From Streptomyces tendae (GTDB taxonomy: Bacteria; Actinomycetota; Actinomycetes; Streptomycetales; Streptomycetaceae), in the NCBI RefSeq assembly GCF_008632955.1, contig NZ_CP043959.1:1178001-1242000 (forward strand): a stretch of 64,000 nucleotides of DNA, in the 5' to 3' direction. A program made the position numbers and the translations under genes. Positions 31,103 through 36,695 of this stretch are shown here, in pieces; position 1 is the first letter of the stretch, and every line of letters begins with the position of its first letter. The notes below the pieces were generated by a model that saw only the letters and a program-made list of their open reading frames with translations, did no database searches and was not told the origin of the DNA.

Positions 31103-32029
31103 TCAGGGGAATGGCCGGCCGGTGATCACCGCGGCGACCGCGCTCCCGCGCGGGAAGGCGCCCTCTTCCACGAGGGTGACAAGGGCATGAAGCAACTTGG
31201 CGACATAGATACGTTCCACGGGGACGCCGTGACGCTGTTCGAAGTCGGCGGCGAACACCTCCAGGGCGGCCGGGACGCGCGCGAAGCCGCCCGCGTGGAA
31301 GCGCTCGTCCAGGCTCCAGTCGCCGCGCGGGCCCCCGAACGCCTCGGTCTGCAGCGCCCGTATCTCCCCGGTGAGGAAGCCGCCCCGGAGCACCGGTATG
31401 CCCAGCGAGCGCCCGGCCCCGGCGAACCCGGCGGCCAGTCCCGCGAGCGTGCCGCCGGTGCCGCAGGCCACCGCGGCCACGTCCGCCTCTCCCGCCAGCT
31501 CCCGGCCGAGGTCCTGGCACCCGCGGACGGCCGCGGCGTTGCTGCCGCCCTCGGGCACCACGTACGCGTCCCCGGCTTCCGCCGCGCGCAGGACTTCCCC
31601 GAGGGTGTCCGGGTCGGTCCTGCGGCGGTACACCGACCGCGGGACGAAGTGCAGCCTCATGCCGTCGGCCGCGCACCGGGCCAGCGACGGATTGAGCGGC
31701 CGGCCGGCGAGTTCCTCGCCGCGCACCACTCCGACCGTGCGCAGGCCGAGCAGCCGGCCGGCGGCGGCCGTGGCCCGCAGGTGGTTGGAGTACGCGCCGC
31801 CGAACGTGAGCACCGTGCGCCCGTCCGCCGCCGCGAGGTTCGGCGCGAGCTTGCGCCACTTGTTGCCGACCAGCTCGGGATGGATGAGATCGTCCCGCTT
31901 CAGCAGCAGCCGGATCCCGTGTCGCTCGAACCGCCCGTCGACGACCTCCCGCAACGGCGAGGGCAGCCGCGGGCGCAGGCCGGTCAGGGCGTCGGGGCCG
32001 GAGGCGTCGGAGCTGGTCACGGGGGCCAT
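31103..32029 (-). CDS. PLP-dependent enzyme of the D-cysteine desulfhydrase/ACC deaminase family
   Basis: A 308-residue fold-type II PLP enzyme. LKRDDLIHPELVGNKWRKL contains the PLP-lysine in the NKWRK context, and FGGAYSNHLRATAAA is the substrate/cofactor loop typical of ACC deaminase and D-cysteine desulfhydrase. The phosphate-binding loop is CGTGGTLAGL. Likely reactions are alpha,beta-elimination of D-cysteine or a related amino acid, or ACC deamination; the sequence read does not separate these. Length is normal for the family (about 300-340). It follows the amidase on the same strand with a 164-base gap, with no functional link evident. Confidence 0.85.
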   Translation of the reverse strand: MAPVTSSDASGPDALTGLRPRLPSPLREVVDGRFERHGIRLLLKRDDLIHPELVGNKWRKLAPNLAAADGRTVLTFGGAYSNHLRATAAAGRLLGLRTVGVVRGEELAGRPLNPSLARCAADGMRLHFVPRSVYRRRTDPDTLGEVLRAAEAGDAYVVPEGGSNAAAVRGCQDLGRELAGEADVAAVACGTGGTLAGLAAGFAGAGRSLGIPVLRGGFLTGEIRALQTEAFGGPRGDWSLDERFHAGGFARVPAALEVFAADFEQRHGVPVERIYVAKLLHALVTLVEEGAFPRGSAVAAVITGRPFP

Positions 32030-32787: not shown

Positions 32788-33076
32788 GACCGCCCTCCTT
32801 CGTGCCGGCGACGGCCGCCGAGCGCGGCCGTCCGATACAGGGCCTATAGCCGAAAGTCGGGAGTTCAAGTACTCGTTCGGCTGCTGTGCGAGTCGATCCG
32901 GACAATTTCCCTCCGTTCGACCGCCGTTGGACGGTGCCTGAGTGTGCCCACCCCTCTCAAGATCCAACCCCGCTCGTTCGTGTAATGGCGCGGGCACGTT
33001 GGGTGAGGAACCCTTGATCACGCAGTGCGACGCCCGGCGCGGCCGGGCGGAGATCTATTGGGGAGGGCAATTTCCT

Positions 33077-34480
33077 ATGTCGGTAGGCGAAGAGGTCCGC
33101 GCGGAGCAGGACAGGCAGCAGCAGAGCCTCGGTACGGCAGCGGCGCGGAACCTGGCCACCACGACCAAGTCCGTGCCACAGATGCAGGAGATCAGCTCCC
33201 GCTGGCTGCTGCGGATGCTGCCCTGGGTCGATGTGCAGGGCGGCACGTACCGGGTCAACAGGCGGCTGACCTACGCCGTGGGCGACGGCCGGCTGACGTT
33301 CGTGAAGACGGGCGACCGGGTGGAGATCATCCCGGCGGAGCTGGGGGAGCTTCCGGTCCTGCGGTCCTACGAGGACGAGGAGGTGCTGTCCGAGCTGGCG
33401 TCCCGCTGCCGGCAGCGCGAGATCGAGGCCGGCCAGGTGATCGCCTCCTTCGGCAGCCCGGCCGACGAGGTGTACCTGCTGGCGCACGGCCGGGTGGAGC
33501 GCGTCGGCACCGGCCCCTACGGCGACGACGAGTCCCTCGGCGTCCTGGCCGACGGTGCCTACTTCGGTGAGCAGGCGCTCCAGGGCGAGGACGCCATCTG
33601 GGAGTACACGGCCCGCACCCTCACCGCCTGCACGGTCCTGGTGCTGCCGCGCGAGGCCGTGGAGCAGGTCGCCGAGCGGTCGGAGTCCCTGCGCGAGCAC
33701 CTGCGCCGGAGCCTCGTCCCGGACGAGCGCACCAACAAGTACGGCGAGAAGGAGATCGACCTCGCGGCCGGCCACAGCGGCGAGCCGGACATCCCGCACA
33801 CGTTCGTCGACTACGAGGCGCGGCCCCGCGAGTACGAACTGAGCGTCGCCCAGACCGTGCTGCGCATCCACACCCGCGTGGCCGACCTCTACAACCAGCC
33901 CATGAACCAGACGGAGCAGCAGATCCGGCTGACCGTCGAGGCCCTGAAGGAGCGCCAGGAGCACGAGCTCGTCAACAACCGCGACTTCGGCCTGCTGCAC
34001 AACTGCGAGTACGACCAGCGCATCCAGCCGCACGACGGGGTGCCGGGCCCCGACGACATGGACGAACTGCTCAGCAGGCGCCGGGGCACCAAGCTGCTGC
34101 TCGCCCACCCGCGCGCGATCGCCGCGTTCGGCCGCGAGCTCAACAAGCGGGGACTCGTCCCGGAGACGATCGACGTGGGCGGCAACCGCATCCCCACCTG
34201 GCGGGGCGTGCCGATCTACCCGTGCAACAAGATCCCGGTGACCGAGGCCCGTACGACCTCCATCATCGCGCTGCGTACCGGGGAGGAGGACCAGGGCGTC
34301 ATCGGTCTGCGGGCGGCCGGCATCCCCGACGAGATCGAGCCGAGTCTGTCCGTGCGGTTCATGGGCATCAACGAACAGGCCATCATCAAGTACCTGGTCA
34401 CGGCCTACTACTCGGCGGCCGTCCTGGTGCCGGACGCGCTCGGCGTCCTGGAGAACGTCGAGATCGGCCGGTGGCGGTGA
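33077..34480 (+). CDS. eshB: Family 2B encapsulin shell protein with cyclic-nucleotide-binding-like domain (EshA/EshB type)
   Basis: This 467-residue protein is the shell protomer of a nanocompartment. The N-terminal arm (about 1-60, with [26 protein letters not shown]) is followed by encapsulin-fold segments and a cyclic-nucleotide-binding-like insertion (about 95-215, with [20 protein letters not shown] and the phosphate-cassette-like FGEQAL at 163-168). The HK97-like remainder follows ([21 protein letters not shown] to [16 protein letters not shown]). Such proteins were first described as EshA/EshB in Streptomyces. SD GGGGAGGG precedes ATG 33077. The polyprenyl synthase next door has the long disordered N-terminus of encapsulin cargo, so the pair probably forms a loaded compartment. 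Confidence 0.88.
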
Positions 34481-34613
34481 CCGACCGCCGGCTCCCGTCG
34501 CCCGCGCCGTGTCCCCGCCCGTCCGGGCGGGTACATCACGGAGGAACGTGCTCGACAGGGGCGGAAGCGCCACCTCTCCGCTCCTCCACCGAGTCGCTCC
34601 CAGGGGGAAGCCG

Positions 34614-35735
34614 ATGACGGAGTCGATGATCCAGCCGAAGGCGGGCCGGCCGGAGCAGCGCACGGCCCGCACCGCGCCGGAGAGCACCACCGCGCCGGAG
34701 CCCCACCCCGCGGACGGACACGAGGCGACGACCCTGCTGGAGCGGACGAGGGCCGCGGTCGATCCGGTGCTGCGGACCGCCCTCGGCTCACTGCCCGCCC
34801 CGATGCGCCGGGTCGCGCTCTACCACTTCGGCTGGCAGAACGGGGACGGCACACCGGCCGACGGAGGCGCGGGGAAGGCGATCAGGCCCGCCCTGGTGCT
34901 CGCCGCGGCCTCCGCGCTGGGCGGCCCCGCCGCCCGGACGGCGGCCCTGCGGGCGGCGGCCGCGGTGGAACTGGTCCACAACTTCACGCTCGTCCACGAC
35001 GACGTGATGGACCGGGACACCACCCGCCGCCACCGCCCCACGGTGTGGACGGTCTTCGGGGACGCCGACGCGATCCTCGTGGGGGACGCCCTCCAGGCGC
35101 TCGCCCTGCGGCTGCTCGCCGAGGACCCCCATCCGGCGGCCCCGGCCGCGGCGGCCCGGCTCGCCCAGTGCGTGGTCGAACTGTGCGCGGGACAGCACGT
35201 GGACACCGCCATGGAGCGGCGTGCCCCCGACGAGGTCACCCTCGCCGAGACGCTCGCCATGGCCGAGGCGAAGACCGGGGCCCTGCTCGGCTGCGCCTGC
35301 GCCGTCGGCGCGCTGTACGCGGACGCGGGCGAGGCGGAGGTCGCGGCGATGGACGCGTTCGGCCGGGAGGCGGGACTGGCGTTCCAGCTGATCGACGACG
35401 TGATCGGCATATGGGGCGACCCGCGCCGCACCGGCAAGCCGGCCGGGGCGGACCTCGCCGCCCGCAAGAAGTCGCTGCCGGTCGTCGCCGCCCTCACCTC
35501 CGGCACCCCGGAGGCCGCGGAGCTCGCCACCGCGTACGCCGCCCCGCACCGGGAGGAGGACGTCGAACACCTCACCCGGCTGGTGGAGTTGGCCGGCGGC
35601 CGGGACTGGGCGCAGACCCAGGCGGCCGACCGGATGGCCCGCGCGATGCAGGAGGTGGCCCGTGCGGTGCCGGACCCGGAGGCGGCGGGCGGGCTGCTGG
35701 CCCTGGCCGAGTTCGTGACCCGGCGCAGCACCTGA
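34614..35735 (+). CDS. Polyprenyl diphosphate synthase, predicted encapsulin cargo
   Basis: A 373-residue trans-isoprenyl diphosphate synthase. The first aspartate-rich motif DDVMD is at 129-133 and the second region DDVIG at 261-265, with ARKKSLPVV after it; the second motif lacks its last Asp, as seen in some actinobacterial prenyl synthases. It should condense IPP with allylic diphosphates to a C15-C20 or longer chain; length is not predictable by eye. The first 60 residues are Pro/Thr/Ala/Glu-rich and probably disordered (TARTAPESTTAPEPHPADG), which is the reported cargo-loading region of family 2B systems. The ATG follows CAGGGGGAAG and lies 134 bases after the encapsulin stop. Confidence 0.88.
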   Translation: MTESMIQPKAGRPEQRTARTAPESTTAPEPHPADGHEATTLLERTRAAVDPVLRTALGSLPAPMRRVALYHFGWQNGDGTPADGGAGKAIRPALVLAAASALGGPAARTAALRAAAAVELVHNFTLVHDDVMDRDTTRRHRPTVWTVFGDADAILVGDALQALALRLLAEDPHPAAPAAAARLAQCVVELCAGQHVDTAMERRAPDEVTLAETLAMAEAKTGALLGCACAVGALYADAGEAEVAAMDAFGREAGLAFQLIDDVIGIWGDPRRTGKPAGADLAARKKSLPVVAALTSGTPEAAELATAYAAPHREEDVEHLTRLVELAGGRDWAQTQAADRMARAMQEVARAVPDPEAAGGLLALAEFVTRRST

Positions 35736-35930
35736 CGGGGCGGCCCCGGCCGTCCCCCCGACCCCGGTACCACGCACCGCCGGGCGGCCCTGACCCGCAC
35801 GGCGGCGTGGTCCCGGTCCGGCGGGTCCCGCACTTCCCCACGGTGTGCGGGGCCCGCCTCCCTCCCTCCGTCCGCCCTGGATAGGCTCAACACCCGTACG
35901 GGCAACGATGGTTGAGACGAAGGGACGGAC

Positions 35931-36554
35931 ATGGGCGTGGCGATCCGGACGGCCGGCGGCGACGACCGGGAGCGGGTGGTCCGGCTGCTGGACGAGGCGT
36001 TCCAGGACGACCCGGTCAGCAGCTGGGTGTTCCCCGGCGAGGAGTACCGCCGTACGACGCACCACCGGCTGATGGCCGCCTTCACCGACGCCACGCTCGC
36101 CGAGGGGCGCGTCGACCTCGCGGAGGACGGCTCGGCGTGCGCCCTGTGGATGTCCGTACCGGCGGACGACCCCGGCCACGGTGACGAGGGGAACGGCAGC
36201 GACGAGTTCGCGGAACTGCGCCGGGCCGTCGACCCGGACAACGAGCGGGTGGAGCTGATCGGCCGGCTCACCGCGGGCATCCACCCTCAGGGGCGGGCCC
36301 ACGAGTATCTGTGGATGATCGGCGTGGCCCCCGGCCGGCAGGGCGAGGGACTGGGCACCGCGCTGATCGGCACCGTCCTCGACCGCTGCGACCGCGAGGG
36401 GCGCCCTGCGTACCTGGAGGCGAGCAGCGAGCGCAGCGCGCGGCTCTACCGGCGCCTCGGCTTCGAACCGGTCGGCGAGCCCCTGAGGCTCCCGGACGGA
36501 CCGCTCATGTACCCGCTGTGGCGCGAGCCCCGGACCTCCGGCCCGCGAGACTGA
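35931..36554 (+). CDS. GNAT-family acetyltransferase next to the encapsulin cluster
   Basis: A 207-residue acetyltransferase. The acetyl-CoA loop is WMIGVAPGRQGEGLGTALI, and the C-terminal part has YLEASSERSARLYRRLGFEPV. An acidic insertion (DDPGHGDEGNGSDEFAEL) occurs near residues 80-100. The substrate is not known. It is the third plus-strand gene of the encapsulin/prenyl-synthase block, 195 bases beyond the synthase, and ends at a clear hairpin. It could belong to the same functional cluster, but the gap allows independent transcription; this is inference. Confidence 0.82.
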   Translation: MGVAIRTAGGDDRERVVRLLDEAFQDDPVSSWVFPGEEYRRTTHHRLMAAFTDATLAEGRVDLAEDGSACALWMSVPADDPGHGDEGNGSDEFAELRRAVDPDNERVELIGRLTAGIHPQGRAHEYLWMIGVAPGRQGEGLGTALIGTVLDRCDREGRPAYLEASSERSARLYRRLGFEPVGEPLRLPDGPLMYPLWREPRTSGPRD

Positions 36555-36591
36555 CAGCCCGGCCGGCGTCCCTCCCGTACGCCGAGTCCGT

Positions 36592-36621
36592 GCCGTACAG
36601 GGACGTTCGGCCCTGTACGGC
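36592..36621. terminator. Hairpin terminator between convergent GNAT and VOC genes
   Basis: GCCGTACAGGG (36592-36602) and CCCTGTACGGC (36611-36621) form an 11-bp stem with an 8-base loop. Confidence 0.75.
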
Positions 36622-36695
36622 GCCCCGCCCGTGGTGATCCTGTGCCTCGTCGCCGCAGTCACCGCAGTCACCGCCGTCGGGGGTGCGGCGGGCGT

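Follow-up and report, generated by a model that had tools for sequence, protein, structure and literature searches.

A family 2B encapsulin shell and polyprenyl synthase locus of Streptomyces tendae with a conserved structured RNA between the synthase and acetyltransferase genes

The locus described here lies in a 64,000-nucleotide (nt) stretch of the Streptomyces tendae genome (NZ_CP043959.1, positions 1,178,001 to 1,242,000; hereafter the window, numbered from its first letter). In it, a gene for a family 2B encapsulin shell of 467 amino acids (33077-34480, + strand) is followed on the same strand by a gene for a polyprenyl diphosphate synthase of 373 amino acids (34614-35735) and by a gene for a GNAT acetyltransferase of 207 amino acids (35931-36554), an arrangement reported with the same positions, strands and lengths in an earlier reading of the DNA letters (the sequence-only reading). 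The interpretation favored in this study, to which a probability of about 0.6 is assigned, is that 33077-35735 encodes a 2B shell and a synthase predicted to be enclosed in it, and that their shared message likely ends in an RNA fold located before the GNAT gene, which is optional. The shell-synthase pair is of a known kind, one of hundreds; the new element is the RNA fold between the synthase and the GNAT, which the sequence-only reading does not list.

The stretch 35760-35858 (+ strand, 99 nt) is a covarying structured RNA, the pairs of which are kept through compensating changes beyond what controls give, and it is described by a model named R1. Helix 1 (35764-35769 with 35811-35816, CCGGAG/CUCCGG) encloses helix 2 (35778-35786 with 35796-35804, GCCGURCGG/CCGYACGGC), and both are followed by a 14-pair hairpin that resembles a terminator and is near-invariant in the alignment (35820-35858). 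Footprinting of 58 synthase-GNAT gaps revealed a block much better conserved than its surroundings, and the 151 nt around the element fold with a z of -3.18. The alignment held 81 rows, of which eight were dropped by eye (loci L066, L028, L074, L088, L110, L117, L108 and L096; the upper helices are divergent in most of these, not clearly so in L110), and 56 of the remaining 73 were used for covariation. In these 56 sequences 29 pairs are predicted, 11 of them with two-sided changes, compared with a mean of 5.6 after shuffling and 3-7 when the partners were slid. Pairing is kept in 96.4% of the 1624 cells (34-51% when slid), and 61 cells change on both sides, whereas shuffling gives a mean of 18.1 such cells and sliding gives 6-16. 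The pair formed by columns 29-48, for instance, is GC in 28 sequences, AU in 19, GU in 7 and something else in 2. None of 500 shuffles reached any of the five covariation measures. On the + strand, G-U cells exceed A-C cells both in all helices together (103 versus 17, with 41 of the 103 coming from one column of the last hairpin) and in helices 1 and 2 alone (48 versus 15), which points to an RNA read from the + strand, although cells are not independent of ancestry. No family of Rfam 15 matches 35760-35858 up to an E of 5, and searches of the main texts of available papers, covering Streptomyces small RNAs, encapsulins and SCO5249-SCO5251, the Streptomyces coelicolor genes to which this locus points, returned no report of this RNA.

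In the genome of the window R1 finds a single copy (75.2 bits), and 69 of the 199 genomes sampled from the genus have one copy each (E <= 0.001; the filters lose weak matches). In a sample of the family, 10 of 121 genomes have a match at E <= 0.01; one of these matches is weak (E 0.0096) and comes from beyond the genus. The genus-wide gene counts given here depend on two cut-offs set by us, namely E <= 1.3e-44 for GNAT homologues and a best E < 1e-100 for the synthase. In 67 of the 69 genomes with the RNA, a synthase is placed upstream on the same strand, at distances of -43 to 863 nt with a median of 33 nt. A GNAT follows the RNA in 47 of the 69 genomes, none being listed for the other 22. 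Presence and absence were also labelled on a tree of shells for 83 of 112 rows, the 29 rows with fewer than 3400 nt downstream being omitted, nearly all diverged loci among them; the RNA was labelled as present upon a blastn match or, in nine loci, an R1 match, and as absent in L082 (37.2 bits, E 0.0021). On this tree the RNA is kept in 18 of the 23 labelled loci without GNAT, and it is also kept in L077 and L087, both of which are devoid of the synthase gene.

According to these data, the RNA fold likely closes or tunes the shell-synthase message as a structured 3' end. In the proposed mechanism, transcription of the shell and synthase genes would start from a conserved block that precedes the shell gene, and the shell subunits would assemble as in the solved 2B shells. 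The synthase may be taken into the shell by its disordered N-terminus, and prenyl diphosphates would be elongated inside and pass through the pores. The RNA would form part of the synthase transcript. Its last hairpin would stop or trim transcription, helices 1 and 2 would protect or regulate the 3' end of the message, and the GNAT would in this clade mostly be expressed apart, from signals of its own.

Several observations weigh against this interpretation. Eight alignment rows were purged by eye before counting, a choice that favors the structure; R1 still scores 40.6-59.5 bits for six of them, and of the other two L088 gives 20.1 bits (E 1.1), a weak remnant, and the genome of L110 gives 76.1 bits. 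The RNA is restricted to a clade, and R1 finds none at E <= 0.01 in 20 loci with diverged synthases (65-76% identity), the best being L140 with 30.4 bits (E 0.025). Another strong hairpin is found behind the synthase in 8 of these 20 loci (z <= -2, 20 simple shuffles), and six of the 20 (L139, L141, L142, L144, L147 and L148) show synthase-GNAT gaps of 88-116 nt with no such hairpin, so that in them the GNAT may be co-transcribed with the synthase. The last hairpin of the RNA has no U-run, being followed by TCCCTCCCTCC, and it is not listed by the terminator scan, which departs from a classical intrinsic terminator. The enclosure of the synthase is also affected, as neither the length nor the sequence of its N-terminus is conserved, and as shells are intact in loci that have lost the synthase gene, with ratios of nonsynonymous to synonymous substitution rates (dN/dS) of 0.11-0.13. 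Finally, the RNA is present in all 60 GNAT-bearing loci of the tree, and the five loci lacking it also lack the GNAT, a pattern that would equally fit a leader of the GNAT gene.

Such a 5' leader or attenuator, which transcription would pass only under some signal, is nevertheless doubtful. It would agree with the location of the RNA 64-487 nt ahead of the GNAT in those 47 genomes, and the loop of helix 2 (CUCC) could, from the alignment, pair with GGAG of helix 1. However, the RNA is retained in the 22 genomes and the 18 labelled loci where no GNAT was found, and the diverged loci hold a GNAT and no detected RNA. The retention of the RNA in most loci where either neighboring gene has been lost has been considered, together with its single copy, its terminator-like 3' hairpin and the near-invariance of the last stem and loop, as a sign that it could be a stable small RNA that originates from the 3' untranslated region (3'UTR) of the shell-synthase message and acts in trans. 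This alternative is rather improbable, and termination alone could account for the conservation of the third hairpin. The small RNA derived from sodF in S. coelicolor, known as s-SodF, offers a comparison. It is processed from the 3'UTR of the sodF mRNA (PMC3919588), and among known cases of structured RNAs made from message 3' ends it comes closest to the one proposed here.

The conserved block could also be a DNA operator located upstream of the GNAT gene, with the palindromes of helix 2 binding OsdR, a regulator of hypoxia and dormancy. In a published scan for OsdR sites, AGGGCCGTACGGCACC is placed at -243 of SCO5251 (PMC5069765). The same 16 bases appear in helix 2 of four loci, where the distance to the GNAT is 244 nt in L042 and 179-216 nt in the other three. 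Nevertheless, the listed site is a prediction (PMC5069765), the element of the window (35760-35858) has no match to the OsdR consensus AGGGCCGATCGGCCCT at up to three mismatches, and a DNA site has no need for helix arms that covary and tolerate G-U above A-C, all of which makes this explanation very unlikely. A bolder proposal can be put forward tentatively: the RNA may found a new family, consisting of a three-helix, single-copy regulator of a large Streptomyces clade, which would have arisen at the 3' end of the message for the EshB shell and the prenyl synthase, would control the compartment post-transcriptionally, and would outlive the loss of either flanking enzyme gene by acting alone. 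As Streptomyces is a model genus, a conserved RNA structure behind the genes of an encapsulin operon would allow a direct test, at eshB-SCO5250-SCO5251 of S. coelicolor, of whether a nanocompartment is controlled post-transcriptionally.

The product of 33077-34480 is, as judged by homology, a family 2B encapsulin shell, and gene order assigns it to the EshB/SCO5249 type. In a hidden Markov model search it reached 765.6 bits against the NCBIfam 2B model NF041163 (cut-off 400), which bears out the family named in the sequence-only reading. Its match to PF19307 scores 455.7 bits, and the SrpI-like HK97 domain covers residues 216-465. A cyclic-nucleotide-binding-like domain (33416-33679, + strand; residues 114-201, PF00027, 6.5e-18) lies ahead of it, in agreement with the earlier claim of an encapsulin fold interrupted by such a domain. 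The nearest solved shell is 9bhu (together with 9bhv and 9bi0; 659 bits, E 3.5e-197, residues 6-466), followed by 9bje and 9bix, and we take 9bhu to be of the EshA/2-methylisoborneol type. Since the AlphaFold model, built from 15 close sequences, is uninformative (mean predicted local distance difference test score, pLDDT, of 32.9), the fold rests on homology to the solved 2B shells. Shells of this family are nearly universal in the genus, 196 of the 199 sampled genomes encoding at least one above the curated cut-off.

In the 7.34 Mb genome of S. tendae there is a single full-length shell match, the other match spanning query residues 89-185 only (E 5.1e-4), and no second shell gene such as two-component family 2B systems possess. 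The shell is thus read as a one-component shell, given that the genome holds one full shell gene. This differs from Streptomyces lydicus, the 2B shell of which has two components, although it belongs to the same family and carries cyclic-nucleotide-binding-like domains over the two-fold pores (PMC12407261). In that species, the shell protein that assembles alone has the residues RRRK, which the RRRG found at residues 334-337 in S. tendae resembles (PMC12407261).

The inserted domain is less conserved than the C-terminal HK97 part of the shell. In the 82 rows of orthologues at or above 86% identity, which include two from the locus of the window itself, the HK97 part is 95% identical to the window and the cyclic-nucleotide-binding-like domain 82%; in the 25 rows at 73-85% identity the values are 84% and 67%, respectively. 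The domain holds the motifs FGEQAL (residues 163-168) and DAIWEYT (residues 172-178). The cassette FGE-AL is roughly kept across orthologues, with FGD as a frequent variant. In a HMMER alignment to cGMP-dependent kinases, Ala173, included in DAIWEYT, stands opposite the phosphate-site Arg. This column contains Ala in 100 and Arg in none of the 107 rows with at least 73% identity (two rows again being the window's own locus), and Arg in 1 of the 17 rows below 70% identity, so the phosphate-binding Arg of functional cyclic-nucleotide-binding domains is missing from the shell. In addition, the related 2B domain of S. lydicus is stated, with reference to other work, not to bind cyclic nucleotides (PMC12407261). 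Because the phosphate-site Arg is gone and the related domain is reported as non-binding, a nucleotide gate in the usual sense, as suggested in the sequence-only reading, is unlikely. The inserted CRP-like domain would instead shade the two-fold pore without any cyclic nucleotide.

The product of 34614-35735 is, on its model match, the known family 2 cargo type 4, a polyprenyl transferase. It scores 481.4 bits against the corresponding cargo model NF041169 (cut-off 450), also matches PF00348, and contains both Asp-rich motifs (DDVMD at 129 and DDVIG at 261). Its AlphaFold model, built from 26 sequences, has a mean pLDDT of 84.4, and the nearest solved relative is the putative polyprenyl synthetase 3nf2 (251 bits). 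Three other synthase homologues are encoded in the genome, the best of them with 46% identity. This synthase type is present in 153 of the 199 genus genomes (best E < 1e-100), and 78 of 80 loci have a synthase following the shell gene (only a fragment of it in L021); of the two exceptions, L011 stops at a contig edge and L077 is a deletion. Both this linkage and the NF041169 score agree with the earlier proposal of a polyprenyl diphosphate synthase as 2B cargo, and the shell probably encloses the enzyme.

How the synthase would be loaded is less clear-cut. Residues 1-33 (34614-34712, + strand) form a disordered N-terminal extension with pLDDT < 50, a candidate loading segment that precedes the first helix of the model (residues 36-58). 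The disordered N-terminal domains of published 2B cargos comprise 50-100 residues (PMC8346489), so the extension is shorter here. Among the best 120 of 6608 synthase relatives, the first conserved helix motif was found in 115, and the distance from the start to this motif spans 1-65 residues with a median of 43, the five relatives that begin at the motif (value 1) looking like misannotated starts. In the diverged orthologous loci L153 and L155 the extension has about 12 residues, with the start as read by eye. The loading region of about 60 residues claimed in the sequence-only reading is thus real as a disordered N-terminus, shortened to about 33 residues, and its role in loading is weakened by the lack of conservation mentioned above. 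Cargo loading, if it depends on the N-terminus of the synthase, would use no conserved sequence. A loading motif similar to ERRGPIGTQRD was tried as a candidate and dropped, given that it appears in part of the relatives and is absent from others and from the window. Strings of this kind recall SLGTAAAR of the shell N-arm and GPTGLGTSAAR of the geosmin-type cyclases (PMC8346489). The cyclase motif resembles the well-kept N-arm of 2B shells, and cargo might mimic the arm of the shell itself, an observation from two loci only. In the surroundings of 29 further 2B loci, strings of the LGT-AR type were found in five open reading frames other than shells, two of which were counted as meaningful (GPTGLGT in L101 and L102, cyclase-type).

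Three loci provide natural examples of shells without synthase. L077, L087 and L088 have lost the synthase gene, L087 keeping only its last ~55 codons, and retain an intact shell and the GNAT. Their shells show 86-88% identity, and the dN/dS values to the nearest neighbor quoted above compare with a median of 0.12 in 86 pairs. These cases have led us to consider that the synthase is a frequent but optional neighbor of a shell that has another partner, or a structural or signaling role. This is, however, unlikely: among the 83 labelled rows, clear losses amount to three, to which L021 adds a locus with a fragment; the losses may be recent, dN/dS to the nearest neighbor averages over the time before the loss, and the linkage of synthase and shell in 78 of 80 loci points the other way. 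The three deletions make the shell without synthase testable.

The third gene of the locus encodes a GNAT protein with puromycin N-acetyltransferase (7k09, 72.6 bits) as the nearest solved structure, and its residues 136-142 (RQGEGLG) are presumably an acetyl-CoA motif. Close homologues are found in 102 of the 199 genus genomes, 95 of which also have the synthase (Fisher odds ratio 9.1, p 2.3e-8, uncorrected for ancestry), and in all 93 genomes where both were placed the GNAT is directly 3' of the synthase and on the same strand, at 87-1039 nt (median 195). Despite this strict position, the GNAT is absent from 58 of the 153 synthase genomes, and it is present in 60 of the 83 labelled rows of the shell tree, a quick tree, on which its state changes at least eight times. 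Seven genomes contain a GNAT and no close synthase. Three of them correspond to this locus (L087, L088 and L093), and in the other four (L089-L092) the GNAT has 47-55% identity and no shell was found in the stretches concerned. In L093, the GNAT lies between homologues of the window genes at 31103 and 37733 (read as genes for a pyridoxal phosphate enzyme and a nickel superoxide dismutase), and the shell, synthase and antiporter genes are all without a match. It also persists in L077, L087 and L088, as noted for the shells without synthase. The GNAT is a positional, not an obligate, partner of the shell-synthase pair, and its inclusion in the compartment, as implied by the sequence-only reading, is not supported, since it is strictly placed yet dispensable and a terminator-like RNA structure separates it from the synthase in the window. 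The analysis hence sets the acetyltransferase apart from the compartment, just as it weighs against gating by cyclic nucleotides.

Systems of this kind have been surveyed before. Andreas and Giessen (2021, PMC8346489) counted 900 family 2B polyprenyl-transferase operons, 888 of them in Actinobacteria, and described acetyltransferases among the enriched neighbors and disordered N-termini without a conserved motif, and the polyprenyl diphosphate synthase has been reported as the commonest 2B neighbor (PMC8049743, 2021). The locus of S. tendae resembles those operons in its shell with an inserted domain, its adjacent synthase with a disordered N-terminus and the acetyltransferases nearby (PMC8346489). 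It differs in that the acetyltransferase is resolved here as an optional, strictly positioned neighbor, and in the RNA element, which the consulted part of PMC8346489 does not mention. The statement in the sequence-only reading that such a compartment is poorly characterized remains valid for the polyprenyl cargo class, but not for the kind of system, which was already known. A paralogous shell is EshA (SCO7699), of the 2-methylisoborneol 2B encapsulin; its gene is described as developmentally regulated and in an operon with 2-methylisoborneol genes. In contrast to the prenyl chain elongase found here, the neighbors of EshA are 2-methylisoborneol synthase and a methylgeranyl diphosphate synthase.

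The gene order in the window is sigma and anti-sigma genes, shell, synthase, GNAT and a nickel superoxide dismutase-like gene, with the flanking labels read from translations alone. This order, the annotations and the 16-base site in the RNA element point to eshB/SCO5249-SCO5250-SCO5251 of S. coelicolor as the putative orthologues. EshB (SCO5249) has been annotated as a nucleotide-binding protein with a promoter up-regulated during development, and S. coelicolor SCO5249 has an entry in a table of PMC3610822. The numbering then gives SCO5250, grouped with isoprenoid genes (PMC7494193), and SCO5251, named puromycin N-acetyltransferase (PMC5069765), which matches the order observed in S. tendae. 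AtrA may repress SCO5249 directly, as suggested in PMC13170358.

Ahead of the shell gene, footprinting of 80 rows delimits a conserved non-coding block (32945-33006, + strand) that is likewise absent from the sequence-only reading. The block is also recovered in a set of 108 rows, among which are the window and copies of its locus, and in which shell identity goes as low as 74%. Its consensus, with letters kept in at least 70-90%, includes TGCCC, GATCCA..CCCGCTC..TCGGGTAAT and CAC..CGTG. It contains an imperfect inverted repeat, and some diverged loci show concerted changes in both arms of this repeat (CCCG..CGGG to CACA..TGTG). No sigma-70-type promoter was matched in the block by a simple scan. 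It was also tried as an RNA and rejected, its fold z being only -1.34, and because of this value it is read as a promoter or operator, likely that of the shell-synthase operon.

Behind the GNAT, in the gap before the convergent next gene, the hairpin noted in the sequence-only reading is real (36590-36623, + strand, fold z -2.5) and likely acts as a terminator. At its apex (36599-36614) lies an OsdR-like palindrome, AGGGACGTTCGGCCCT, with two mismatches; matches of this kind are no more numerous in the window than chance would give. Finally, the Rfam family Sernc350, an antisense RNA of Saccharopolyspora, matches 33112-33618 on the minus strand, antisense to the coding sequence of the shell, with 97.2 bits (gathering threshold 50). 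This match probably reflects coding conservation and was not used as evidence of an RNA, although it may be a sign that 2B shell genes of another genus are transcribed in antisense.

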